Assembly (NCBI GenBank): GCA_013314715.1
Contig: JABUFC010000014.1
Coordinates: 1-58,905, forward strand
From: Bacteroidales bacterium
Lineage (GTDB): Bacteria; Bacteroidota; Bacteroidia; Bacteroidales; GWA2-32-17
Length of the DNA: 58,905 bases
Direction of reading: 5' to 3'
The position numbers and the translations under genes were made by a program. Below are positions 296-16,192 of this stretch, in pieces. Position 1 is the stretch's first letter, and the number at the start of each line of letters is the position of its first letter. The notes under the pieces are model-generated. The model did no database searches. It worked only from the letters and a program-made list of their open reading frames with translations, and had not been told where the DNA came from.

Positions 296-1321
296 TTAAT
301 CTATATCTTCCCATTTCAAGGGTGTGCCTCTTTTCAGCTCTCTTTTAGCTTTTTTACCAAGTACTTCGTAATAATATTTAGGCGAGATACCATACCCCGG
401 ACGAATGCTGCGGATGTTTTCGGGTGTAAGTTCCTGCCCTTGCGGAATATCTTTAACCACAAACAACGAACGCCCAAGTTCTTTGCTCGCTTGAGCCTTG
501 GCATCGAGCTCGTAGCTTACTTGCCCAAGTGCTTTTTCGGCTTCGCGGACGTGTTTTACCATCAGTGCGAACTCTTCTTTATCGAGCGAGAAAGCCGCAT
601 CGGGACCTCCAATGGATTTGTCTAAGATAAAATGTTTTTCGATAATACGTGCGCCCAAAGCTACTGATACCACCGGTGAAGTAATGCCGAGGGTGTGGTC
701 GCTTAATCCTACTTCGCATCCAAAACGTTGCTTCATGTCGGGTATGGTGAGCAAGTTGGCTTTATCGATGGGGGCGGGGTACGATGAGGTGCATTTTAAG
801 AGTGCAATTTGGTGATTGTTTACGCGGTAACAAGCATTTATGGCATCTCTGATATCTTCTTCGGTAGCCAATCCGGTTGATATGATCATGGGTTTGCCTA
901 ATTTGGCAGCTTTTTCTATAAGTGGAGTGTCGGATATCTCGAACGATGCTATTTTGTATGCGGGAGGATTAAATTGCTCCAGAAAATCGACTGCCGTGAA
1001 ATCGAAAGGTGTCGAGAAGCATAATAAGCCGCAGTTTTGAGCTTCGGCAAAGAGTTTTTCGTGCCATTCCCATGGTGTGTAAGCTTGTTTGTATAGATTG
1101 TAAAGTGTTTGTCCGTCCCAGATAGTTCCATGATTCAGGCGAAAATATTCGTTGTCGCAATCAATAGTAATGGTATCGGGGGTGTAGGTTTGCAATTTTA
1201 TGGCATCGGCTCCTGCTTCAGCAGCAGCACGTATGGTTTGCAACGCTACATCGAGGCTGTGGTTATGGTTTGCCGACAACTCAGCAATGATAAATACATT
1301 AGATAAAGGAAAGTTAAGCAT
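296..1321 (-). CDS. pseI: Pseudaminic acid synthase (NeuB family)
   Basis: Condenses phosphoenolpyruvate with a 6-deoxy di-N-acetylated hexose to give pseudaminic acid, a nonulosonic acid used on surface glycans. The NeuB TIM barrel fills about residues 8-245 (FIIAELSANHNH at 10-21, a KLQTYTPDT strand near 42). A C-terminal SAF/antifreeze-like domain follows at about 280-336 (GRSLFVVKDIPQG). The TIWDGQTLYNLY stretch near 66 is characteristic of PseI rather than sialic acid or legionaminic acid synthases. Length 341 is normal. The start overlaps the end of the upstream HAD gene by 8 bases, suggesting translational coupling. The gene is visibly more GC-rich than the five genes upstream. PseB, PseC and PseG are not in the window. 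Confidence 0.9.
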   Translation of the reverse strand: MLNFPLSNVFIIAELSANHNHSLDVALQTIRAAAEAGADAIKLQTYTPDTITIDCDNEYFRLNHGTIWDGQTLYNLYKQAYTPWEWHEKLFAEAQNCGLLCFSTPFDFTAVDFLEQFNPPAYKIASFEISDTPLIEKAAKLGKPMIISTGLATEEDIRDAINACYRVNNHQIALLKCTSSYPAPIDKANLLTIPDMKQRFGCEVGLSDHTLGITSPVVSVALGARIIEKHFILDKSIGGPDAAFSLDKEEFALMVKHVREAEKALGQVSYELDAKAQASKELGRSLFVVKDIPQGQELTPENIRSIRPGYGISPKYYYEVLGKKAKRELKRGTPLKWEDID

Positions 1322-1988
1322 TAGTAAGTTTGTTTAATATGTCGATATTTATTTCATCAAAATTATTAAAAGTCAAATGTGCTTCATAATCTTTATCAAG
1401 AACTATTTCAGAAAATTGACCTCTTTTTACTCGAATAGTTTTAAATCCTAGTGGTTTTATTCCGCAAAAGTCTTTGTATGGATTATCTCCAAAATATATT
1501 ATTTGAGATGGGCATAATTTTTCAAGATTTGCAATTTTTAAGAATACATGAGGCGAAGGTTTTTCGTATTTAATGCCAAATTGTCTTGTTGGATAAGCTT
1601 TTTTTATGAACTTATTTAATTTTAAAGCTTTAACTTTATTTCTTTGTACAACTTTATTTCCATCGGTTACAACGTAAATGTTAGATTTAGAATTTTTTTT
1701 TAAAAATCTTAAAGCATCATCATAAAGTTTTATATCAGGTTTATGATATCTATATGTTTTAATACAGTTAAAAACTTCTTTTTTGGAGTATAGCTTATAT
1801 TCTTTTAGAAGGATGTTAAAAACTTGGCCTCTGCCTTCTTTATTTAGTATTTTAAGGCAGTTATTAAATAATTCATCTGTTTCTAAGTTATGTTTTTTAG
1901 CTAAATATTTTGCTACAGCTTTAAAACCACTTTTGACGAAAGTTATTTCTTCGTAAAGCGTATCGTCTAAATCAAAGATTAAAAGCAT
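1314..1988 (-). CDS. HAD-superfamily phosphatase (HAD-IA like)
   Basis: A 224-residue haloacid-dehalogenase-type hydrolase. Motif I with the nucleophile is FDLDDTLY at residues 5-12. Motif II is VVTDGN near 107. The motif III lysine is in KYEKPSPHVF near 143, and motif IV is IYFGDNPYKDF near 167. A helical cap sits between motifs I and II as in YjjG or N-acylneuraminate 9-phosphatase relatives. Its position directly before pseI, with an 8-base overlap, suggests dephosphorylation of a sugar-phosphate intermediate in nonulosonic acid synthesis, but substrate cannot be read from sequence. The start codon shares one base with the previous stop (TAATG). Strongly AT-rich compared with pseI. Confidence 0.8.
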   Translation of the reverse strand: MLLIFDLDDTLYEEITFVKSGFKAVAKYLAKKHNLETDELFNNCLKILNKEGRGQVFNILLKEYKLYSKKEVFNCIKTYRYHKPDIKLYDDALRFLKKNSKSNIYVVTDGNKVVQRNKVKALKLNKFIKKAYPTRQFGIKYEKPSPHVFLKIANLEKLCPSQIIYFGDNPYKDFCGIKPLGFKTIRVKRGQFSEIVLDKDYEAHLTFNNFDEINIDILNKLTNA

Positions 1989-3439
1989 TAATACACTGCG
2001 ATTTTTTGAACAGATGTTGTATTATTATGAATAGATTTGACTAAATAAATTCCATTCAATTCAACTGGTAAATTAACTTGTTTTTCTTCAAAAGCATAGA
2101 GTTCAGTGTTCAAAATAAACTTTCCTGTAATATCTGTAATAAATAAATTTATCTTTTCGGGATATGGATTTTTTAAATAAAGACAATTATTATTTTCGGG
2201 ATTTGTAAAAACAATATGCTGGCCAGAATTATTATTTTCATTAATCCCAGTAATAAAATGAAATCCTTTGTAATAATAAAGATTCGGAAGACCTCTTTTT
2301 GCTGAAGCATCGCTTGTTAAAGGTACAGCATTTCTAACATATGTTGCATAAGGAACGACCATGTCAGGATTTTCGATTTTTGAAAGGTAAGGCACATCTG
2401 TATTTGGATTATATTCACTAACATAAACATTACCGTCTGGTCCAACTTGAATAGCTGAAGGTTCACAGCCATCAGTTAAATGTGTTAATACTTGAACATT
2501 ATTGAATGAATTAGATTGGGATAAATCAAATTGATAAATGTAATTGGTTGTTCCTAATGCTGATGATACAGTAGAAAGATAGAGTTTTGTTTGATTAGGA
2601 GAAAATTCAGCATGAGCACTTTGGTCAAATGTAACTGGAGCTTCAATGCAATTTGAAACTACTCCACTATAACGATTAAAATCACATAATTCTAGGGGCG
2701 CTCTCATTCTAACAACAGCTAATTTATTACCTTGCATATTTGCTTTCATGCCTCCAACCGCATTCATCCAACCATCATGCCAAGCATATGAAGGGTAAGC
2801 TCCACCAGAATGAACTATTCCTGAATGACTAATAACGGGTGTCGTATTTAAACCGGAGGCTGTTAAATGATACGCTAAATATGCATCAGTATTCCATTCG
2901 TGAGTTAATATCCAATATCCATTTTCTGAGCCATCTAAAACAGCTGTAACTTTTTCTGCAACAGGTGCATGAAGTAAAATGTTTTTTTGTCCACTTACAA
3001 CATCTCCCTTGCCATTATCTAAGGTCATATCAACCACACTATATCGTAATCCGTTTTGAAGATGATTTTCAACAGCATCAACAGTAAAAACATAAAACTT
3101 ATTATTATTGTTTAAATCAGGTACAATAATTGAAGATTGTGCTGCTGAATAATGTCCCAATAAACCTGAACCATTGGGCATTACTTGATGAAAGCGATTC
3201 CATATTGTTGTTCCTTCTGTATAAAATAATAAATTTCCATTTAAATCGCAAATAGTTGCAACTCCTTCTATAGTATTAGTTTGTCCACCATAAATAGCAA
3301 CAGGATGCCCCGTATTAAAAGTAATACCTGCATATTTACCAAAATACCAAATGTTACTATTATAATTATTTGCTTGAGAAAATAAGGAAACACTGAAAAT
3401 AATTCCTAATAATACAGTTAGTAATGATTTCTTTTTCAT
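1988..3439 (-). CDS. Secreted beta-propeller protein with T9SS sorting tail
   Basis: A 483-residue exported protein. Residues 1-23 form a signal peptide (MKKKSLLTVLLGIIFSVSLFSQA). The body has the NIWYFGKYAGITF opening and repeated blade-like stretches such as VATICDLNGNLLFYTEG, typical of a Bacteroidota propeller family. The last ~70 residues resemble a type A T9SS C-terminal domain (NPYPEKINLFITDITGKF, LNGIYLVKS), which targets the protein across the outer membrane and is usually cleaved. It sits between sugar-biosynthesis genes and has its own promoter (3560-3592). Its role there is unknown; it could be a cell-surface substrate for the glycan, but that is inference. Confidence 0.75.
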   Translation of the reverse strand: MKKKSLLTVLLGIIFSVSLFSQANNYNSNIWYFGKYAGITFNTGHPVAIYGGQTNTIEGVATICDLNGNLLFYTEGTTIWNRFHQVMPNGSGLLGHYSAAQSSIIVPDLNNNNKFYVFTVDAVENHLQNGLRYSVVDMTLDNGKGDVVSGQKNILLHAPVAEKVTAVLDGSENGYWILTHEWNTDAYLAYHLTASGLNTTPVISHSGIVHSGGAYPSYAWHDGWMNAVGGMKANMQGNKLAVVRMRAPLELCDFNRYSGVVSNCIEAPVTFDQSAHAEFSPNQTKLYLSTVSSALGTTNYIYQFDLSQSNSFNNVQVLTHLTDGCEPSAIQVGPDGNVYVSEYNPNTDVPYLSKIENPDMVVPYATYVRNAVPLTSDASAKRGLPNLYYYKGFHFITGINENNNSGQHIVFTNPENNNCLYLKNPYPEKINLFITDITGKFILNTELYAFEEKQVNLPVELNGIYLVKSIHNNTTSVQKIAVY

Positions 3440-3593: not shown

Positions 3594-5513
3594 TTATTTC
3601 ATAAAAAATATATAATCTTTGTTATATCTTATTTGTGTAGCTTTTGCATTTGAAATTTTTGAATAGTATTCAGTTATATCAACACCATTTGATTCTAATA
3701 AAAACCAATAAAATGTATCTATACCTACTGCTAATGATAATGTTGAAGCACCACCAAATCTACAATTACATTCAATTATATGAATATTTTTATTTTTGTC
3801 AATAATTGCTTGATAAACAGCATGACCGAATAAATTCAAATCATAACTTAATTTTTTGAAGAGTGTTTCGATTTCTTCGTTTTTAAATGTAGTTGTAATT
3901 TGCGATTCGCCATTAACAATCAAATCTCTTTTCCTTAAAACAACACCTTTACAAATATTTTTATTAGATATGTAAACATCAACACTAAATTCTTCTCCTT
4001 CTATGTAAGGTTGAAAAATAGGGTTAATTAGTTTTTTTGAATGATTTAGTGCGTCTTCAAAACTTACATTTATTGCAATATTTTGAGAACCTGCTCCATA
4101 ACGTTCTTTTACAACAATTTTATGATTCTTTAAATTGTTAATATTATCAGTTGTAAATATTATCGGATACTTATTTGATAATATATTGTAAAACATTAAT
4201 TTGTCAATACAAATATTAACAGTCTCAAAGTCAGATACCATTACATTAATGCCATTATTTTTTAAAATGTTTTTGTTTTTACTCCAGTAGGCTAATTCTC
4301 CATCTCTGGTAGGAATAATTGCAGTAATATTATTTTGTTTGCAATAGTTTATAACTTCTTCAATACCAAGAGTATCAATTTTGGGCATTTCCCAAAAATC
4401 ATCAACAAAATATTTTGCTATGCAATTTTTATCAACATCACCACCAAATACTTTTATTAATTTGTTGATTTTTTGAGTGGCGTCTTTTACACTTTGAACA
4501 AGCGGAACTTTTTTTGAAATACTAGTTATTAAAACATTGCAAACAGGAGTTTTAGACTCATCGTATATTCCATTTCTTTGTTTTTCAAATTCAATTATTT
4601 CAGGAATGCTTTTTTCGAGTGTGTATTTCGGTTTCCAATTTGTTATTTTAACTAATTTTGAGATATTTGCTTGTGAGGCTTCGAAAGGGATGTTTTCATT
4701 TTTTTCAATAATTTGAGCATCAGGGAAATAATTTTTTAATATGGATATTATATCTTCAACTTTACGTGATTTTCCGGTTCCGAGGTTTACTATACCATTA
4801 TAATCTGATAATGCAAGTCGAGCTAACCCTTCTGCAGTATCTTTTGCGTAAATGTAGTCGAAAATACCTTCTTTTTTATACAAGTAAATGGTTTCTTTAT
4901 TAATGAGTGATCTAATCCATCTTGATATTACATCGCGAGAATTTCTACCATATCCTCTAAATATTCTAACACTGACTGTAGAAAATTTAGTTTCTTGAAA
5001 TTGAGATAAAAAGTTCAATTCAATTTCGTGAGCTAATTTAGCCATTCCAGTTAAATTTCTTGGATTAATAGGGTGTTGTTCGCTTAGTTCAAAAGGAGTT
5101 TGCTGTGGTTCTCTAAACTGATAAAGTGATGGTTCATAAATTAAATAAGAAGAAGCAAATACAACTCTTTTTAATGATTCCAGGGGTTTTAATAAAGTCA
5201 TTAAATGATGACTTAAATTAATATTATGTTGAAAATTTTCATCCCAAAAATTATAAGTTTCGGTTGAGCGTTCAAAAGTTGCAGCTAAATGAAAAAAAAT
5301 TTCAGGTTTAAAGTCTTCTAATTCTTCTTTCGTAATGTAGTTTAAATCTCCTTGTCGATATATGATGTTTTGTGGCCATTCAATGGGGCGAGGTTTAAGA
5401 TCACCAACAAATATTATAGCATCTTGACCGTGTAAAATTTTAACTAATTCATTACCAATAACTCCATTACCGCCACTTATAAATACTCTTTTGTTTTTAA
5501 ATGTGTTTTCCAT
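3594..5513 (-). CDS. Fused NAD-dependent epimerase-like / ATP-grasp protein
   Basis: A 639-residue two-domain protein. Residues 1-310 are an extended short-chain dehydrogenase/epimerase: Rossmann motif GGNGVIG at 14-20, FHLAATFER near 72, SSYLIYEP near 121, and a C-terminal substrate lobe. The usual catalytic YxxxK is TxxxK (NLTGMAK near 153-159), so the tyrosine appears lost. Residues 325-639 are an ATP-grasp ligase: an N-terminal CarB-like lobe, VVKERYGAGSQN near 470, and the metal-binding IECNCRFGGAS near 592. ATP-grasp enzymes usually join an acyl phosphate to an amine, so it may add an amino acid or amide to a sugar (inference). It overlaps the GNAT gene by 17 bases. The pair is usually encoded separately. 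Confidence 0.75.
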   Translation of the reverse strand: MENTFKNKRVFISGGNGVIGNELVKILHGQDAIIFVGDLKPRPIEWPQNIIYRQGDLNYITKEELEDFKPEIFFHLAATFERSTETYNFWDENFQHNINLSHHLMTLLKPLESLKRVVFASSYLIYEPSLYQFREPQQTPFELSEQHPINPRNLTGMAKLAHEIELNFLSQFQETKFSTVSVRIFRGYGRNSRDVISRWIRSLINKETIYLYKKEGIFDYIYAKDTAEGLARLALSDYNGIVNLGTGKSRKVEDIISILKNYFPDAQIIEKNENIPFEASQANISKLVKITNWKPKYTLEKSIPEIIEFEKQRNGIYDESKTPVCNVLITSISKKVPLVQSVKDATQKINKLIKVFGGDVDKNCIAKYFVDDFWEMPKIDTLGIEEVINYCKQNNITAIIPTRDGELAYWSKNKNILKNNGINVMVSDFETVNICIDKLMFYNILSNKYPIIFTTDNINNLKNHKIVVKERYGAGSQNIAINVSFEDALNHSKKLINPIFQPYIEGEEFSVDVYISNKNICKGVVLRKRDLIVNGESQITTTFKNEEIETLFKKLSYDLNLFGHAVYQAIIDKNKNIHIIECNCRFGGASTLSLAVGIDTFYWFLLESNGVDITEYYSKISNAKATQIRYNKDYIFFMK

Positions 5514-6072
5514 AATCTTGACTTATTATACTATGTATATGTGAATTTATAAACTTGTTTTCGAATAAAACATTTTGTCTTAAAGTTCCTTCATAAATAA
5601 AACCATTTTCTTCAAGAATTGATATATGGTATTTTCTAAATTCGTAGGTTTCTGTAAATAATTTGTTAAAGTTAAGTTCTTCAAAACAAATTGTTTTCAT
5701 TAAAGTAATAAATATTGAAAAATCTTTTTTATAGATTGTATCATTTTTAGTTCTTTGAGTTTCTAATAAAAAAGATAATTCGGCTTTTTTATTTTCCCAG
5801 TCTAAATTCGTTAACCCGCCATATCCAATGCAAGTGTCTTTTAATAAATAACTAAATAAAATTTGTTTTGGAGTTATTTGTGAAAAAGAGGGTTCAATAT
5901 AGTTATGATAATATTGTATTTGTTCATCTTTAGTAAGTAATTTATTTTGTCTTAATACAGCAATTTGTTCATTTCTCCAATTCATTATTAAAAACATGTC
6001 TTCTGCTCTATAAGGAGAAATAGAATATTCATTTAAATTATAATAAGACCTACTTAAACAAATATATTCCAT
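5497..6072 (-). CDS. GNAT-family N-acetyltransferase, PseH-like
   Basis: A 191-residue acetyltransferase of the RimJ/PseH type. It opens with the substrate-binding MNWRNEQIAVLRQNK stretch (about 30-44) seen in PseH and other nucleotide-sugar acetyltransferases. CIGYGGLTNLDWENKKAELSF near 82-102 is the central strand pair, and the late KYHISILEENGFIYEGTLR helix-turn is typical of GNAT proteins. In pseudaminic acid synthesis PseH N-acetylates the 4-amino group of the UDP-linked altrosamine intermediate. Its place between pseF and pseI supports that role, but other amino sugars are possible. Starts 2 bases after the methyltransferase gene stop; AT-rich. Confidence 0.7.
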   Translation of the reverse strand: MEYICLSRSYYNLNEYSISPYRAEDMFLIMNWRNEQIAVLRQNKLLTKDEQIQYYHNYIEPSFSQITPKQILFSYLLKDTCIGYGGLTNLDWENKKAELSFLLETQRTKNDTIYKKDFSIFITLMKTICFEELNFNKLFTETYEFRKYHISILEENGFIYEGTLRQNVLFENKFINSHIHSIISQDYGKHI

Positions 6073-6074
6073 CT

Positions 6075-6962
6075 TTATTTAGCTTTAAAAAAACCTATTA
6101 TTTGCCTACCTAATCCTAAGTTCGCTAATGAAGAATAAAATTGTATAATAGAATCCATGTTTTTTGTGTTAAACATTAAATTTTGTATCAATATTCTTTG
6201 CAAATGAGCGTCCTTACCTTTAGTTTTATCAGATATATAATTTGAGGTATTGTTTAGCAAATTAAAATCAATAGGGAAATCACTTATGAGTAATTCTTTT
6301 GACCAGTTACAATAATTAGTAATATTAATTAATCCTTCCTTATTAAAATACGAAAGATGATCGGGATATACAATCCAAAATTGAGAATCAATAAATTTAT
6401 TTTCATAGGCATAATTTTGAAGTATTGAAAAATCGTTGGGCACTTCAATTACTAAAATAGTGTTTTTATGGCTTAATGAATATAAATTATTTAAAAGATC
6501 TACTGGTGATAATACATGTTCTAATACATTATCAAGCCAAATAATATCAAAAGTTCTGTTTTTTTTCTTAAAGTTAGCAATAATTTCCTCAATGTCTCCT
6601 TCAATGAAAAACTTTTCACAATGCTTATTATGATTTTTTATTCCAGATATTGAAAAATCAATCCCTATTATATTTTGACTTAATTGGCTAAAATAGTTTA
6701 GTACCCATCCTTCTCCACACCCAACATCTAATAAAGAAAATTTTTGAGGTAGATTAACAATTTTTTTAATAGCATGCAATTTTAATTCGATACTATTGTT
6801 TATATAATTCATTTCTTCATTAGAATATTTTTTTTGATAATTACCTTTATCAAATTGATAATATTTATTTTTATAATAATTATTCAAATCTTCTTTTGTT
6901 GGTTTATTTTTTACTTCAAAAAAACCAAAATCGTTCTTTATTATATCAATATTTTTATCCAT
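6075..6962 (-). CDS. Class I SAM-dependent methyltransferase
   Basis: A 295-residue methyltransferase. Motif I (FSLLDVGCGEGWVLNYF, about 76-92) binds S-adenosylmethionine, the IIGIDFSISGI strand follows, and FDIIWLDNVLEHVLSP near 137 is the usual motif IV with a buried active-site region. A hydrophobic C-terminal half (YPDHLSYFNKEGL near 200) matches the Methyltransf_23 group common in O-antigen clusters. It probably methylates a sugar or glycolipid precursor in the cytoplasm; the acceptor is not evident. It overlaps the pseF gene by 8 bases. Very AT-rich, unlike pseF. Confidence 0.75.
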   Translation of the reverse strand: MDKNIDIIKNDFGFFEVKNKPTKEDLNNYYKNKYYQFDKGNYQKKYSNEEMNYINNSIELKLHAIKKIVNLPQKFSLLDVGCGEGWVLNYFSQLSQNIIGIDFSISGIKNHNKHCEKFFIEGDIEEIIANFKKKNRTFDIIWLDNVLEHVLSPVDLLNNLYSLSHKNTILVIEVPNDFSILQNYAYENKFIDSQFWIVYPDHLSYFNKEGLINITNYCNWSKELLISDFPIDFNLLNNTSNYISDKTKGKDAHLQRILIQNLMFNTKNMDSIIQFYSSLANLGLGRQIIGFFKAK

Positions 6963-7644
6963 TTTTTAAAATTCTATATTTCATTTCAGCTATTTTCCAG
7001 TCTTCTTCGGTGTCGATGTCTTGCACTTCGCTTTCGGGGAGGATAATGGCTCCGGCGTTTTGTGCAAAGAAGCGTTTTTGTTTCATGAACTCGGATACAC
7101 GCATCCAGTAAAATTGTCCGCTATCGTGGTAGGCTGGTTCAAGGTCTTGCGAGCGTTTAGTGAAGTTCTCGGGCTGAAACATCGAAACTTTGCCATTAGA
7201 TAGTTTTAGTGCACGCTGGATGGGGTACGAAAAACGTACAATAGGGAAAACCGCTTCAAACGATTGATGGAGCATTAAATCGTATGCTTCTTTTATGCGT
7301 TTAGCATTTATAAACGGAGCGGTTGCCAATATACAGCATACATTATCGAATGTAATTCCCTTATTTTTGTAAGTGATTAGCACCTCTTCAACTACATCGC
7401 CAATATTGGCATAATCGTTAGCCGTTTGGGGTGATCGAAAGAAAGGCACTTGAGCACCATATTGCTTTGCTATTTGTGCAATTTCGGTATCATCGGTCGA
7501 GACCATGATTTCTGTGAATAGACCTGTTTGTTGAGCCGCCTCAATGGAATAGGCGATAATGGGTTTACCCAGAAAAGGTTTAATGTTTTTTCGAGGGATG
7601 CGTTTACTTCCTCCTCTTGCTGGTATAATGGCAATATTATTCAT
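6955..7644 (-). CDS. pseF: Pseudaminic acid cytidylyltransferase
   Basis: Activates pseudaminic acid with CTP to CMP-pseudaminic acid, the donor for glycosyltransferases. The 229-residue protein starts with the CMP-sugar synthetase signature [19 protein letters not shown] (residues 5-23), followed by [12 protein letters not shown] and the STDDTEIA loop. The [12 protein letters not shown] stretch near 176 and the length favour PseF over sialic acid NeuA. Its presence with pseI implies the pathway reaches an activated nonulosonic acid. The start overlaps the fcl stop by 8 bases. More GC-rich than the downstream methyltransferase gene. Confidence 0.9.
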
Positions 7645-8569
7645 GTTTTTGGGCTAAAAAATCGTTGTATGCGATGGCAATTCCTTGACGCAATGGAGTT
7701 TTGTGTCTCCACCCCAAGCTATGAAGCTTAGATACATCTAAAAGCTTACGGGGAGTGCCGTCGGGTTTAGTTGTATCGAAGGTGAGTTTACCTTGATAGC
7801 CCACAACTTCTTTAACCAATTGTGCGAGTTCGGCAATGCTAACTTCTTCGCCGCTACCAATATTTACCCAACCGTAATCACTATAATTTTGCATTAGAAA
7901 TACACAGGCATCGGCTAAATCGTCGGCAAAAAGAAACTCACGCTTGGGCGAACCGGTGCCCCAAACCACAACTTCGGGGGCTTGCTTTATTTTAGCTTCG
8001 TGAAAGCGACGTATAAGTGCCGGCAAAACATGCGAGTTTTCGGGATGATAATTGTCGTTTAAACCGTATAAGTTAGTAGGCATAACACTAATAAAGTCGC
8101 AACCATATTGATAACGATATGTGTCGCACAATTTTAGTCCGGCTATTTTGGCAATGGCATATCCTTCGTTGGTGGGTTCGAGTTCGCCGGTGAGTAGGTA
8201 TTCTTCTTTCATAGGTTGCGGGGCAAATTTAGGATAAATGCACGAAGAGCCGAGAAACATTAACTTTTTAACTCCCGCAAGATAAGCTGCATGTATGGTA
8301 TTGGCAGCTATCATTAAATTTTCGTATAAGAATTGAGCTTTGTAAGTATTATTGGCTAAAATGCCTCCAACTTTAGCCGCTGCAACAAAAACATAGTCGG
8401 GCTTTTGGGTTTTAAAAAAACGCTCAACTTGTTGTTGTTGAAGCAAATCAAGTTCTTGATGGCTTGCGGTAATGATATTATTATAACCTAATGCTTGTAA
8501 TTTTCTGACAATAGCACTTCCAACCATGCCACGGTGTCCGGCGACATATATTTTTTCGTGTTTTTCCAT
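7637..8569 (-). CDS. fcl: GDP-L-fucose synthase
   Basis: NADPH-dependent epimerase-reductase that converts GDP-4-keto-6-deoxymannose to GDP-L-fucose. In the 310-residue sequence the cofactor motif is [11 protein letters not shown] (10-20). The signature [14 protein letters not shown] is near 62-75, SSCIYPK near 107, and the catalytic YAIAK near 136. The N-terminal half continues with [12 protein letters not shown] in the place usual for this family. The partner GDP-mannose 4,6-dehydratase (gmd) is not in the window. First biosynthetic gene after the NusG-like regulator, and its stop overlaps the pseF start by 8 bases. Confidence 0.93.
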
Positions 8570-8641: not shown

Positions 8642-9133
8642 TTAAAGCACTTGCAGGTAATTTTTAGGTATTTGAACCACCAACGAAACAGGTAGTTCGG
8701 TAATCCTAAATAAAACCTTGTGCTTACCTTTCAACTCAATTACTTCGCCTTCGTAGCCCGAAAAAATGCCTTTTGTAACTTTTACTTTTTGACCAATTTC
8801 GATAGGAGTGGGGTAAGAGTTAAAAGAGTACGAAGAACTTGTAATAGCCTTGATCATATCCATTTCTTCGGGACTTATAATGGCAGGTTTGCCATCGAAC
8901 CAAACATATTTAACAACTCCGGATATGAAAAGACACTCATGATAAGTCTTAGGGGTAACACGAACAAAACAATAGGAACGAAATAGAGGCTCTTGTACCC
9001 ATTTTTTACGGTCTTTCCATTGGCGAAGTGTTTTTTGCAATGGCAAATAAGCTTCTATTCCTTTTTCGGTTAGAGCTGTAAATACTTTTTTTTCAAATCT
9101 CGAACGCACATACAAAGTGTGCCACTCTGCCAT
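8642..9133 (-). CDS. NusG-like transcription antiterminator (UpxY type)
   Basis: A specialised NusG paralog that binds RNA polymerase and promotes elongation through long polysaccharide operons. The NGN domain spans about residues 2-95 (MAEWHTLYVRSRFEKKV, then EAYLPLQKTLRQWKDRKKWVQ). A KOW domain follows at about 110-160 (GQKVKVTKGIFSGYEGEVIEL). I prefer the ATG at 9133 because it aligns with family starts; an in-frame ATG at 9178 would add 15 residues. It is the first gene of the sugar cluster, as UpxY proteins are in Bacteroides capsule loci, so it likely controls fcl through pseI. Confidence 0.85.
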   Translation of the reverse strand: MAEWHTLYVRSRFEKKVFTALTEKGIEAYLPLQKTLRQWKDRKKWVQEPLFRSYCFVRVTPKTYHECLFISGVVKYVWFDGKPAIISPEEMDMIKAITSSSYSFNSYPTPIEIGQKVKVTKGIFSGYEGEVIELKGKHKVLFRITELPVSLVVQIPKNYLQVL

Positions 9134-9264
9134 TGTTTTAACTTTTAAAGTTGCAGTAAAATTACTGAAAATTTTCATTTTTTAATATGACACTAAAATG
9201 GGTTATTAGGTTTCCCATGTTGAAAAGTTTTTGTATAACAATGTTTGAAATCTATAAATGCAAA

Positions 9265-11915: not shown

Positions 11916-14169
11916 ATACCTCTTTTATTTTTTTCTACTTTCGATAATTCCCGCTAAAGCACAATCTGTGCTTGATTCCTTAACTCAATTAGTTCACAAT
12001 GCTTCGCATGATACTACTCGATGTCAATATCTACTTGAAATTGGTGACTTATATGAAAATCAAATTCCTGACAGTGCAATTTATTTTTATCAGCAAGCCG
12101 AAAAACTTTCGTGGAAAAATTTATTAAAAGTTAAGCTATTAAGCTCATCTGTTGCTAAAACTTTTGCCAACTTACATGCTAAAGCGCTTCGTTATAGGGC
12201 TATTGTACTGTTAAACAACAATAAAAAAGGACCTATAGTAGAATTACTTAATCGTTCGCTACTGTTTGAGAGGATAACGAAGAATAAAAAAGGCGAATCA
12301 GCCTGTTATTCTAACATAGGCGTTTTTTATCAAAACAGGGCTTTATACGAAAAGGCATTAGAATATTATTACAAAGCACTTTATTTAAGCGAACAAATAC
12401 AAGACAAAAAAGGATGCGCCAATCTTTATAATAATATTGCCAATATTCATAATTATCAATACGAAAACAAAAAAGCTCAAAGTTATTATTTGAAAGCAAT
12501 AAAACTATATAAAGAGCTTAATAACGATTATTTAGTGGCTCAAGGATACAATAATTTAGGTATTACATATAAAAATCAAAAAAAATATGGTATAGCAACT
12601 TCGTTGTTGAATCAAGCGTTGAATATTTACAAACAGTTTGAAGATATGGCAAGACAAGCTTCTTGCTATACCAATTTAGGAGTAATACAATACGAACAAA
12701 ATCATTACGATTCAGCTATTGTTTATTACACAAAAGCCATAAGATTGTATGAATTGAAAAAAGATAGCGAGGGATTGTTATTAAATTATGTGAATATTTC
12801 CGAATGTCTTATTGCTAAATACGATTCTCTAACAATCAAAAATCAAGAACTCCTATTTTTAGCAAAAGATTATTGTAATAAGGCTTTAAAATTAGCATAT
12901 AATAATTATTACATAAATGCAATTAGTTATTCGTTGATGAAAATATATGAACGGTTAAATAATAAATTAAAGGCATATGAATATGCAAAAATATACATAG
13001 CAACCAAAGACAGTCTTTTTTCTGAAGATAAAACCAAAGCTTTGGCACAAGCAGAGGCATTGTATAAAAACGAGAAACAACGATACATAATTGAAAAGTT
13101 TAATGCACAAAAAGCATTAAGCCAAAAAACGCTCGAAGCTCAACAAGCAACTAATGAAAAACAACGAACCATTATTGTTTCGGTCATAATAGGTCTTATT
13201 TTAGTAGGTGTGTTGTTGTTTGTTGTTGTATATTTTCTTCGTCTTAATCAAATTGCCAACCGAAAACTAACCATTAAAAATCATCAAATTACCAAACAAA
13301 AAGAAGAAATCGCTATTCAACGCGACGAAATAGCAAGCCAACGCGACATAGTAATGCAACAAAAAGCTCAAATTGAAGCTTATCATAAAGCATTAAAAGA
13401 TAGTATTTATTATGCCGAAAATATACAAAAAGCAACTTTACCTGGAGAAAATCATTTAAATCAATTACTTAAAAATTATTTTGTTCTTTATTTGCCGCGT
13501 GATATTGTTAGTGGCGACTTTTATTGGTCTTTTTCTAAAAACAATTTTATTTACTTGGCTGTTGCCGATTGTACTGGGCATGGGGTTCCTGGATCTTTGA
13601 TGAGTATGATGGCCATTTCTTACCTGAACGAGTTGATGCATTCGAAAGAGCAATTGCAAACCAACGAAATTTTAGATTTGCTTAGATCGCACATTATAAA
13701 ATCGTTTGGAAAGAGCGAAAATTCGGATAAAATGAAAGATGGACTCGACATTGTTCTTATAGCAGTGGATAGAAGCAAAAAAATTTTATACTTTTCGGGA
13801 GCCAATAATCCTCTTTACATAGTTAAGACAAATAAAAATTCTTCATTTGTAACCCATCAACTTATTGAACTCATTCCAGACAAAATGCCAGTGGGTTTTC
13901 ATACCCTTATGAAGCCATTTAGTCAACAAACCTATTTACTTGAAGACGGTGATATGCTTTATTTATCAACCGATGGATTTTCTGACCAATTTGGAGGACA
14001 AGAGGGTAAAAAACTTATGCGCAAACGTTTTAAAGAATTGCTACTAGAAACGGCCACTTTACCAATTACTGAGCAATGCAATTTTTTGAGACGAAAACTC
14101 TTAGATTGGAAAGGAAATTATCCTCAAACTGATGATATAACTGTTTTAGCATGGAAAATAAATGAATAG
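11905..14169 (+). CDS. TPR sensor with PP2C/SpoIIE phosphatase domain
   Basis: A signal peptide (MKIKYLFYFFLLSIIPAKA) is followed by about seven tetratricopeptide repeats to roughly residue 400 (for example NIGVFYQNRALYEKALEYYYKAL). Then come a transmembrane helix near 425-447, a short coiled coil, and a SpoIIE/PP2C-type serine phosphatase domain at about 520-750 (YLPRDIVSGDFYW, VADCTGHGVPGSLMSMM, YLSTDGFSDQFGG with metal-binding aspartates). The periplasmic TPRs probably sense or scaffold, while the cytoplasmic phosphatase acts on an anti-sigma antagonist-like protein. I chose the ATG at 11905, which overlaps rmuC by 11 bases and begins the signal peptide; an upstream start at 11887 would spoil it. 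Confidence 0.88.
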   Translation: MKIKYLFYFFLLSIIPAKAQSVLDSLTQLVHNASHDTTRCQYLLEIGDLYENQIPDSAIYFYQQAEKLSWKNLLKVKLLSSSVAKTFANLHAKALRYRAIVLLNNNKKGPIVELLNRSLLFERITKNKKGESACYSNIGVFYQNRALYEKALEYYYKALYLSEQIQDKKGCANLYNNIANIHNYQYENKKAQSYYLKAIKLYKELNNDYLVAQGYNNLGITYKNQKKYGIATSLLNQALNIYKQFEDMARQASCYTNLGVIQYEQNHYDSAIVYYTKAIRLYELKKDSEGLLLNYVNISECLIAKYDSLTIKNQELLFLAKDYCNKALKLAYNNYYINAISYSLMKIYERLNNKLKAYEYAKIYIATKDSLFSEDKTKALAQAEALYKNEKQRYIIEKFNAQKALSQKTLEAQQATNEKQRTIIVSVIIGLILVGVLLFVVVYFLRLNQIANRKLTIKNHQITKQKEEIAIQRDEIASQRDIVMQQKAQIEAYHKALKDSIYYAENIQKATLPGENHLNQLLKNYFVLYLPRDIVSGDFYWSFSKNNFIYLAVADCTGHGVPGSLMSMMAISYLNELMHSKEQLQTNEILDLLRSHIIKSFGKSENSDKMKDGLDIVLIAVDRSKKILYFSGANNPLYIVKTNKNSSFVTHQLIELIPDKMPVGFHTLMKPFSQQTYLLEDGDMLYLSTDGFSDQFGGQEGKKLMRKRFKELLLETATLPITEQCNFLRRKLLDWKGNYPQTDDITVLAWKINE

Positions 14170-14185
14170 TTTAAATATCAATAAT

Positions 14186-16192
14186 TTAGTTATTATAACC
14201 GAGCAATTTGAGGTTTTTATAAATAAAAATTAAGTCGTTAATTATTTTGTAATCTTTTGCGTACATAAAATTATATTCTTCGGCTTTGTTGGCATCAAAA
14301 CTTATGGGGAGTACCGATTTCTTAATTTGTGGAAGTATATTGCTTTGTGGTTGGGCATAACCGACCCATGTTTTTAAGCCTAATAAAACGGCAAAAATAT
14401 TTTTAACAAAACCGGCTTTTTGCTTAATGAAAAAGATAAAAATTGGTAAAAACAGCAAGAAAAATAAACCAATTGTAATATCGAGCAAACGTTTATTTCG
14501 CTTATTTATAGGTTGCGAAATAGAATTAATATAAATATCGAAAGTAGGTTCTTCTGAAAAGACTGTTTTGCTGCCAATGATAGCATCGCCTACAATTTTA
14601 AAGTCGAGATTATGGCTAGCAAAATACGCCATCTGTTCAATTATATTTTTAGGTGATATATCTTTAGAACAAAAAACAATTTCGTTTATTTTATGTATGC
14701 GAATAACTTCAGGCAAGTCATTTAAATTTCCAACTATTTCACTGCTTTTTTCATTATTTGGACTTACCCAAAGGATGGTATCGTACGATAACGAATTTTT
14801 TAGCAAAGATGATGTTCGAATATACTCGTCTTTGCTTCCAATTATTACAGCTCTTTTTCGTATATTTTGTCCGATATAAAAAAGTGGAATACGGCTATGT
14901 TTTAATAACCATCGGATTGCCGGGAATAGGGTAAACGAACCCATAATTCCCAAAAGTACAATAGCTCTTGAATATCTTAAATCTTCACTTAAAAGTGCAT
15001 AAAGGCTTAATAGCAATAGACTACCTAAGGTTAATCCTTTAAAAAGACTCGACCAACGAGGTCGTTGAGCATACAAGCCAGAGTAATATAAAGCAAAGAC
15101 TAACAACAGAGAATATACAGGTAAAACATATAATATAAACTTTTCGGGATATACACCCTCGTTGCCATATTTAATCTGTTCCCAAATTTGTGTAATAGCA
15201 TACAGCAATCCAAAAAAGAAAATAAAATCAAACAGTGGTATTGCAATTAGTATAATGACACGTTTTAGCAATGATAAAAAAGCTCGAAGCCAAATCGCTA
15301 TTTGAATAAAAAACGACATAATAATGCTTTGGTTTGAGCGAAAGTGTTTATTTGCAAAAATGGCCATTGCCGAATAAAACATACGTACATAATTAATACT
15401 TCCTTTTTTTGTGCTTTCGCCTTTGTAATGAATAATTGTTGTTCCGGGGAAATAATAATTCTTATAACCTGCTTGTTTTATGCGGAAAGATAAATCAACA
15501 TCTTCGCCATACATAAAAAAAGTTTCGTCGAGTAAGCCAATACTATTAAGAACACTTTTTCGTAATAACATAAATGCACCCGATAAAACATCGACTTCAT
15601 GGATAGAAAATTCGTCTAAATATCCTAAGTGATATTGATTAAAAAAAGGCGATTTTGGAAATAGTTTAGATAAGCCAGTAATTTTAAAAAATGCAACTTT
15701 AGGTGTAGGAAGCCCACGCTTCGATTCGGGTAGAAAATTGCCTTTGCCATCAATCATCCTAACGCCTAAACCTCCTGCGTCGAGACGATTGTCCATAAAA
15801 GTAATTACTTTTGATAAAGTGTCTTGTTCTAAAACGGTATCGGGATTTAAAAGTAAAATATATTCGCCTTTTGCTTGACTAATGGCTTGATTGTTTGCTT
15901 TAGAAAAACCAACATTGGTTTTATTTTCTATTAGTTTAACCCATGGAAATTGTTCTTTTATTAAGTAACAGGAACCATCAACCGAATGATTATCAACAAC
16001 AAAAACCTCAACCGGTTGCCCCAAATTATCAATGGCCAATTTTAGCGAATGGAGGCATTGCGACAAAAAAAACTTAACGTTGTAATTGACTATAACTACA
16101 CTTAGTTTCAAACTAAAAAAATTTATCGTAAAAGTATAGAAAAAAAGCAAAACAATTAACGTTCTAAAACCAGAAAATATTTTACAAACCAA
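14186..16192 (-). CDS. GT2 glycosyltransferase fused to membrane/sugar-transferase-like region
   Basis: Residues ~29-275 form a family 2 glycosyltransferase of the rhamnosyltransferase (WbbL) kind: SVVIVNYNVKFFLSQCL, VVDNHSVDGSC, LLLNPDTVLEQDTL and MYGEDVDLSFRIKQAGY. Several membrane helices follow (about 290-430). Next comes a CoA-binding-like fold (KRAVIIGSKDEYIR) and a region resembling polyprenyl sugar transferases (NKRLLDITIGLFFLLFLPIFIFF, LGLKTWVGY), but without the full catalytic motif set. It probably builds lipid-linked surface glycan. The true start is uncertain: the family begins at about residue 28 (LKLSVVIV), where the codon is TTG. Convergent with the TPR gene. Confidence 0.8.
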   Translation of the reverse strand: MVCKIFSGFRTLIVLLFFYTFTINFFSLKLSVVIVNYNVKFFLSQCLHSLKLAIDNLGQPVEVFVVDNHSVDGSCYLIKEQFPWVKLIENKTNVGFSKANNQAISQAKGEYILLLNPDTVLEQDTLSKVITFMDNRLDAGGLGVRMIDGKGNFLPESKRGLPTPKVAFFKITGLSKLFPKSPFFNQYHLGYLDEFSIHEVDVLSGAFMLLRKSVLNSIGLLDETFFMYGEDVDLSFRIKQAGYKNYYFPGTTIIHYKGESTKKGSINYVRMFYSAMAIFANKHFRSNQSIIMSFFIQIAIWLRAFLSLLKRVIILIAIPLFDFIFFFGLLYAITQIWEQIKYGNEGVYPEKFILYVLPVYSLLLVFALYYSGLYAQRPRWSSLFKGLTLGSLLLLSLYALLSEDLRYSRAIVLLGIMGSFTLFPAIRWLLKHSRIPLFYIGQNIRKRAVIIGSKDEYIRTSSLLKNSLSYDTILWVSPNNEKSSEIVGNLNDLPEVIRIHKINEIVFCSKDISPKNIIEQMAYFASHNLDFKIVGDAIIGSKTVFSEEPTFDIYINSISQPINKRNKRLLDITIGLFFLLFLPIFIFFIKQKAGFVKNIFAVLLGLKTWVGYAQPQSNILPQIKKSVLPISFDANKAEEYNFMYAKDYKIINDLIFIYKNLKLLGYNN

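Follow-up and report, generated by a model that had tools for sequence, protein, structure and literature searches.

Within a 58,905-nucleotide stretch of DNA from a Bacteroidales bacterium (GenBank assembly GCA_013314715.1, contig JABUFC010000014.1), referred to as the window, we analyzed a single open reading frame (ORF) that joins an extended short-chain dehydrogenase/reductase (SDR) to a PylC-like/ATP-grasp ligase and that lies in a gene run with pseudaminic acid (Pse) biosynthesis genes. The fusion is a rare two-part enzyme. With confidence evenly poised for and against, we propose from sequence comparison that it may act as a tailoring enzyme of a variant Pse pathway, catalyzing the ATP-dependent N-acylation of a Pse precursor. 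G, L, and C numbers below are our labels for genomes, loci, and contigs, and feature coordinates are collected in Table 1.

The fusion starts with ATG and contains no internal stops. Its three domain matches all exceed the curated Pfam cut-offs and consist of Epimerase (PF01370) at residues 10-245 (E 1.6e-19, 70.7 bits versus a cut-off of 20.9), PylC-like_N (PF21360) at residues 327-424 (E 1.9e-13, 50.8 bits versus 27), and ATP-grasp_3 (PF02655) at residues 435-588 (E 3.1e-14, 53.8 bits versus 23.2). By sequence, the first half matches the GalE-type epimerases 6dnt and 4zrm in the PDB, and the second half matches 2pn1. A first-pass annotation of this DNA had read the frame as a sugar-nucleotide epimerase-like domain joined to a complete ATP-grasp ligase, and these matches, along with the 10 further fused homologues described below, bear that reading out. 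The completeness of the ligase, a PylC-like N domain followed by an ATP-grasp domain, is evident from the retained motifs KERYGAGS (from residue 469), GEEFSVD (from 506), and ECNCRFGG (from 581), and from K469, E508, Q568, E581, and N583, which we take to be ATP/metal-type residues and which are invariant in an alignment of all 11 fused proteins. The ligase half has the same domain order and motifs as the PRK12767/PylC-like ATP-grasp proteins (annotated "carbamoyl phosphate synthase-like", PDB 2pn1). The fusion differs from them in its attached SDR, in falling below every PRK12767 cut-off (its best NCBIfam equivalog score is 158.6 bits versus 390), and in forming a clade of its own.

The 10 fused homologues are found in the window's phylum and are 48-60% identical to the window's protein. 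One is from the same genus, one more from the same family, one from elsewhere in the order, six from one genus of another order in the same class, and one from another class of the phylum, and the fusion thus spans four families and two classes. The genome searches with the fusion covered overlapping sets of 60, 395, 393, 349, 321, and 323 genomes at E limits of 1e-3, 1e-20, and, for the last four, 1e-30; a scan of genome contigs yielded a single relative, L013, which is unfused. In two relatives, the ligase has no SDR half attached. In G338 (L027 9417-10970, minus strand), it is fused to a GNAT domain in place of the SDR, giving a protein of 517 residues. In the gammaproteobacterial metagenome-assembled genome (MAG) G786 (L013), it is a standalone ligase between PseG and a HAD gene, beside PseI-PseG, and no other match at E ≤ 1e-30 was obtained from the 349 genomes searched in the phylum of this MAG. 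In a tree, the 13 ligases form one clade (support 100/100) separate from seven generic ATP-grasp relatives; the inner order, and with it the choice between one origin of the fusion and loss of the SDR half from these two relatives, is left unsettled by this tree, for which the program warned of long branches. A chance fusion, a frameshift, or an assembly artefact was rejected because 11 homologous fusions lack internal stops and share the same TxxxK. Spread by plasmids or viruses was likewise rejected, as no plasmid match was obtained at E ≤ 1e-20 and an alignment scan of viral contigs matched 87 stretches, none of which is a relative. That the halves serve unrelated roles, with co-expression as the sole reason for their joining, is very improbable. 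The linker between them is short and unconserved (mean pairwise identity 21%, no invariant column), and the ligases of G338 and G786 have no such partner, as this arrangement would allow; however, the fusion has been kept in four families of two classes, and the searches with it gave only distant unfused SDR matches (E 8e-22 at best), most of which, where checked, carry Tyr.

The missing tyrosine of the SDR half is a consistent feature of the family. The GGNGVIG motif occupies residues 14-20 and NLTGMAK residues 153-159, and an alignment with ordinary extended SDRs places T155 in the column of the catalytic Tyr and K159 in that of the Lys. The retention of the former motif and the replacement of YxxxK by TxxxK had been pointed out in the first-pass annotation, which suggested a search for the same domain order and a comparison of this position; all 10 other fusions have TxxxK and none has an intact YxxxK. 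Residues S122, Y123, T155, K159, E81, R82, R186, and F218 are identical in the 11 fused proteins. Among the unfused SDR relatives at E < 1e-10 (n = 10), column 155 is Tyr in nine and a gap in one, and column 123 is Ser in nine and Arg in one, never Tyr. Eight weaker SDR matches (E > 1e-10) were excluded from this comparison. Their column 155 contains Tyr in three, Ser in one, Pro in one, and a gap in one, with two not covering it; the Pro, in a GDP-fucose synthase, reflects misalignment since that protein has its own YAIAK. Those weaker matches that align at column 123 have Ser, Asp, Asn, or Ala, and again never Tyr. Across the 11 fused proteins, the SDR half has a mean pairwise identity of 66% with 112 of 315 columns invariant, as compared to 52% and 63 of 314 for the ligase half. 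A decaying epimerase was therefore rejected. Based on the invariant residues and on the SDR half being the more conserved half, the loss of Tyr is an old and fixed trait of a constrained domain rather than decay.

Structure modeling, a check that had also been suggested, was informative for the fold and less so for the active site. The AlphaFold2 model of residues 1-318 (predicted template modeling score 0.77) has a good core, with residues 79-89 poor and the active-site loop, residues 124-157, at a predicted local distance difference test (pLDDT) score below 50. Compared with the PDB, the model matches GalE-type epimerases with Z scores of 25.5-28.6 among the 50 matches listed, including 6pmh (Z 28.6, root-mean-square deviation 3.1, 292 aligned residues), and the PF01370 profile and the GalE-type fold together place this half among the extended SDRs. 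Since residues 124-157 are poorly modeled, Tyr123 and T155 are not placeable in space. A full-length model of the fusion had a mean pLDDT of 55.7 and was poor over most of the ligase as well as at the active-site loop. The fused proteins resemble GalE-type SDRs (the UDP-GlcNAc/MurNAc-type 4-epimerases 6dnt and Mth375 6pmh/6pnl, along with WbmF 2q1u) in fold, in GGxGxxG, and in the Ser and Lys of the triad, and differ from them in the Thr155 that replaces Tyr in all 11 and in Tyr123, R186, and F218 as distinguishing marks.

The first-pass annotation had also proposed that the SDR half is redox-dead and serves only as a sugar-binding lobe that presents its substrate to the ligase. In favor of this are the consistent T155, set against Tyr in nine of the 10 unfused relatives (one gap), and the positions of R186 and F218, which occupy columns where GalE-type enzymes have Asn and Arg. 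In those enzymes, the nucleotide sugar and its diphosphate are bound by the Asn of an R-x-x-N motif together with an Arg further along the chain. We do not regard the proposal as demonstrated and consider it rather unlikely, as the nicotinamide adenine dinucleotide (NAD)-site motifs are kept (GGxGxxG as GGNGVIG, D38, GDL as GDLN, and HLAA), the SDR half is the more conserved of the two, and the invariant Tyr123 might replace the lost Tyr. Moreover, altered triads occur in active extended SDRs of the PglF/WbpM type, and some active dehydratases carry Met in place of Tyr. A second possibility, which we judge only somewhat unlikely, is that the SDR half is active with its acid/base moved to Tyr123 and acts on the same sugar before ligation, by epimerization, dehydration, or redox chemistry. 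The invariance of S122, Y123, T155, and K159, the restriction of Tyr at column 123 to the fused proteins, and the GalE-type fold are consistent with this, and in 4,6-dehydratases the residue at the equivalent position is the catalytic acid. Against it, the geometry of Tyr123 depends on the poorly modeled loop, and G338 and G786 manage without an SDR domain. Judging from the sequence motifs, the SDR half may still bind NAD, and in our favored reading it would bind a sugar as well; Tyr123, beside Ser122, might substitute for the lost Tyr.

The fusion is part of a conserved gene module. A methyltransferase, a GNAT, and a HAD phosphatase flank the fusion in all 11 fused loci (the window, L024, L025, L032, L060, L026, and L061-L065); the methyltransferase is also present at the G338 locus, and the HAD at the loci of both G338 and G786. 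The HAD motifs, including DLDDTLY, are kept in 12 aligned rows. The earlier placement of the fusion in a Pse cluster is well founded for PseI and PseF, both over their NCBIfam cut-offs (Table 1), whereas the window's GNAT lies far below the cut-off for PseH (22.9 bits versus 93.1). Likewise, the GNATs of the four further loci analyzed gave no PseH match at E ≤ 1e-5, PseH elsewhere in any of these genomes not having been searched for. PseI was found within the fetched stretch at eight of the 11 fused loci and at both unfused ones. The PseI of G002 adjoins PseB/PseC on a separate contig, and the stretches fetched for G568 and G1349 did not include a PseI. PseI was scored against its cut-off in seven of the 13 ligase genomes and exceeded it in each. 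The six besides the window's scored 473-514 bits versus 340.25 and so are true PseI by the NCBIfam standard. PseB and PseC were over cut-off in all seven genomes tested, with those of the window's genome adjoining each other on another contig, and in the other six genomes were matched beside the fusion. PseF or SpsF is usually near the fusion. In G1532, the genes form an uninterrupted run of PseB-PseC-methyltransferase-GNAT-fusion-HAD-PseI-PseF. At the G786 locus, where Pfam was run on 10 of 30 listed ORFs, the GNAT profile found none in ∼34 kb (ORFs of at least 80 residues not nested in longer ones). Neither the fusion nor the HAD was matched by PADLOC at E ≤ 0.001, and a role in anti-phage defence was rejected on this basis.

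Two variations on the module were observed. A second, TylF-like methyltransferase lies between the methyltransferase and the GNAT in seven of the 11 fused loci (L025, L026, and L061-L065; e.g., L026 12128-12880, minus strand, and L025 8129-8875, plus strand). In L061 of G1349, ORFs that by eye are SDR-like and aldo/keto-reductase-like (13604-15306, minus strand) are inserted between PseC and the SpsF-like gene, and the SpsF is more divergent (38-39%). In G1349, the fusion may thus serve the synthesis of another nonulosonate.

Another property of the genomes with this ligase, one beyond the reach of the first-pass annotation, concerns PseG. In the window's genome, PseB, PseC, PseI, and PseF of the canonical Pse pathway are all over cut-off, and PseG was not detected. 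The TIGR03590 search for it was negative in all 12 ligase-bearing genomes of the phylum (11 fused plus G338), which include the single-contig genome G1400. The best stray matches, 19.5 and 24.3 bits versus a cut-off of 153.55, were rejected as PseG candidates; the former is in a 389-residue glycosyltransferase-like ORF of G000 and the latter in a 385-residue ORF of G568 that by eye is MurG. As a control, we sampled 65 genomes evenly across the phylum, of which five have PseI over cut-off, i.e., the window's genome and four others. In each of these four, which have no such ligase, PseG lies 0.6-1.3 kb from PseI and scores 140.8-151.9 bits in three genomes (just under 153.55) and 211.9 bits in one. 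Some PseI match at E ≤ 1e-60, mostly to other synthases, is present in 30 of the 65. The control is informative only where PseI exceeds its cut-off, because the 25 genomes with a PseI match below it (the best four at 274-303 bits) also have no PseG over 31 bits. By Fisher's test, the absence of PseG is associated with the presence of the ligase at p values of 0.0005 by genome and 0.005 by genus, both of which ignore relatedness, and six of the 12 PseG-negative genomes are from one genus. Outside the phylum, G786, with its unfused ligase, has PseG at 192.6 bits. In the genomes with the module, either another enzyme frees the sugar from uridine diphosphate (UDP) or the pathway runs differently.

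It is conceivable that the module itself replaces PseG, with the fusion and HAD, with or without the methyltransferase, freeing the sugar from UDP before PseI acts. The 12 genomes with the ligase and no detected PseG, among them one on a single contig, would fit this, as would the four control genomes with PseI, no ligase, and a nearby PseG; the window's genome, in addition, has only one PseI match at E ≤ 1e-60, that of Table 1. Yet no domain of the module is a known UDP-sugar hydrolase, G786 combines the ligase and HAD with PseG, half of the 12 genomes belong to one genus, and the absence is based on one profile. Since G338 lacks both PseG and the SDR half, the SDR half would not be a general answer to the missing PseG. 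We consider such a replacement improbable. The broader version, in which the fusion together with the HAD, GNAT, and methyltransferase would both install an acyl group and release the sugar from UDP, seems equally improbable; it could proceed, for example, by NAD-dependent oxidation and elimination at the SDR site that lacks Tyr, or via a phosphorylated intermediate that the HAD would clear. To our knowledge, no nonulosonate pathway works by such a route. Separately, PseG matches in G078:C24, G093:C32, G094:C21, and G106:C32 lie in frames of 480-507 residues as compared to the 280 positions of the PseG model, and in these genomes PseG may be fused to another domain.

Returning to N-acylation of a Pse precursor, the reaction sequence would be as follows. 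The ATP-grasp half would activate a carboxylic acid, either an amino or a hydroxy acid and perhaps a phosphorylated one, as an acyl phosphate. An amine would then receive the acyl group; the likeliest acceptor is the amine at C4 of the PseC product, the later N7 of Pse. Either the sugar or the acyl group would subsequently be trimmed by the methyltransferase and GNAT, with the HAD phosphatase removing a phosphate from one of the two. The SDR half would bind NAD and the sugar (or the acid) within the same sequence, either holding the substrate or catalyzing a step with another acid/base such as Tyr123. That the acylation takes place where PseH would otherwise act is suggested by the GNAT-ligase fusion of G338 and by the G786 ligase locus, where no GNAT was found. 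Several points weigh against the proposal. The role assigned to every family member is read from sequence, and no function is transferable from the PRK12767 family since the fusion scores far below its equivalog cut-offs. A GNAT that acetylates C4 in the manner of PseH would leave the ligase in need of another amine or a different order of steps. Finally, the parts of the module are not inseparable because G786 has the ligase, HAD, and PseG with no SDR half and no GNAT found.

The kind of chemistry proposed is known or foreseen, as acyl-substituted Pse and ATP-grasp genes in glycan clusters have both been published. Pse with N-acetylglutamine or di-O-methylglyceroyl groups has been described (PMC3068675), and a glyceroyl-bearing Pse, Pse5Am7Gra, is reported from Tannerella, where pseBCFHGI are present and, in the sections cited, the gene for the glyceroyl (Gra) group is unknown (PMC6388019, PMC6120980). 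The first-pass annotation had suggested that attachment of an amino acid or similar group to the sugar was an undescribed tailoring step. Ligation of an acid to an amine would still be the likeliest chemistry of the fusion, but the claim that it is undescribed does not stand, given precedents such as these.

Three published gene sets are comparable, as described in the cited parts of the reports. In the type B flagellin genes CDR20291_0244-0247 of Clostridioides difficile, an ATP-grasp gene is needed for a terminal peptidylamido-sugar on flagellin, and its mutant is without the amino-acid-bearing amino sugar, the precise role having been left open by the authors (PMC5207246; structure, PMC5207245). 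In contrast to the present system, the sugar is Fuc3N and not Pse, no SDR fusion is mentioned in those parts, and the mutant loses the whole terminal sugar. The sfmABCDE operon of Shewanella oneidensis includes NeuB-like, reductase (SDR-type), methyltransferase, and ATP-grasp genes for a Pse-like sugar whose substituent is probably nitrogen-free and methylated; when the ATP-grasp gene is deleted, the shift in flagellin mass is a little smaller than in mutants of the other genes, and the cells still swim (PMC3765264). This operon differs in having separate genes, an ATP-grasp_4-type ligase, and a thiamine pyrophosphate enzyme (PMC3765264). Clostridium acetobutylicum CA_C2186-2199 clusters a NeuB-type synthase, SpsF, an ATP-grasp "amino acyl ligase", an epimerase, a methyltransferase, a GNAT, and a GNAT+HAD protein (PMC4000134), and all components of the Pse pathway are predicted in this strain (PMC13317340). 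Here too the genes are separate, with a DUF4910 peptidase-like protein and an acyl carrier protein in addition (PMC4000134), and the likeness is one of description only.

No published account of this SDR-ATP-grasp fusion was found in our literature searches among the matches listed. Within the reach of those searches, the fusion, its fixed TxxxK alongside Tyr123, and its association with the lack of PseG look new. Knowledge of the enzymes that modify nonulosonates is described as scarce in the cited section of one report (PMC6388019). The module thus offers concrete candidate genes for unusual acyl groups on bacterial sialic-acid-like sugars, the enzymes for which are mostly unassigned, and the absence of PseG marks a testable gap in the Pse pathway. 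An SDR with a fixed loss of Tyr and yet strong conservation is also a good test of how far the catalysis of this fold can be rewired.

Table 1. Features of the fusion and its gene run in the window
Feature	Positions	Strand	Evidence or remark
Fusion ORF, SDR + PylC-like/ATP-grasp, 639 residues	3594..5513	-	ORF and Pfam/NCBIfam; kept in 10 further genomes
Extended-SDR (epimerase-type) half, residues 1-315; T155, K159, S122, Y123	4569..5513	-	PF01370, alignments, AlphaFold2 model
Ligase half, PylC-like N domain + ATP-grasp, residues 326-639	3597..4538	-	PF21360 and PF02655; 2pn1 match 3.5e-10
UpxY-type antiterminator, head of gene run	8642..9178	-	NF033644, 154.2 bits (cut-off 100)
GDP-L-fucose synthase (Fcl), different sugar, same gene run	7637..8569	-	NF047922, 520.5 bits (cut-off 500)
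PseF cytidylyltransferase	6955..7644	-	TIGR03584, 314.2 bits (cut-off 205.7)
Class I S-adenosylmethionine methyltransferase (Methyltransf_23)	6075..6962	-	Pfam
GNAT acetyltransferase	5497..6072	-	Weak PseH match; overlaps fusion start by 17 bases
Type IX secretion system (T9SS)-sorted secreted protein, between fusion and HAD	1988..3439	-	TIGR04183, 25.0 bits (cut-off 23)
HAD phosphatase	1314..1988	-	Nearest NCBIfam TIGR02253, 91 bits, below cut-off 169.75
PseI pseudaminic acid synthase	296..1321	-	TIGR03586, 511.6 bits (cut-off 340.25)

The minus-strand gene order in the window is UpxY, Fcl, PseF, methyltransferase, GNAT, fusion, T9SS-sorted protein, HAD, and PseI, with spacings between -17 and 72 bases; a 154-base gap below the fusion is the exception. 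In the other 10 fused loci, no match to the T9SS-sorted protein was found in the interval from fusion to HAD, and by this comparison the protein is probably outside the module. Related T9SS-type secreted proteins (26-28% identity) occur beside several Pse loci (window 1988-3439, minus strand; L025 13103-16413; L032 4728-7541; L065 15933-18173) and are possibly glycan carriers or chance neighbors. Elsewhere in the window, positions 14186-16192 (minus strand) encode a 668-residue protein with an N-terminal GT2 domain and apparent membrane segments. Pfam names only GT2-type domains in it, and by eye its C-terminal stretch resembles a shortened sugar-phosphate transferase.

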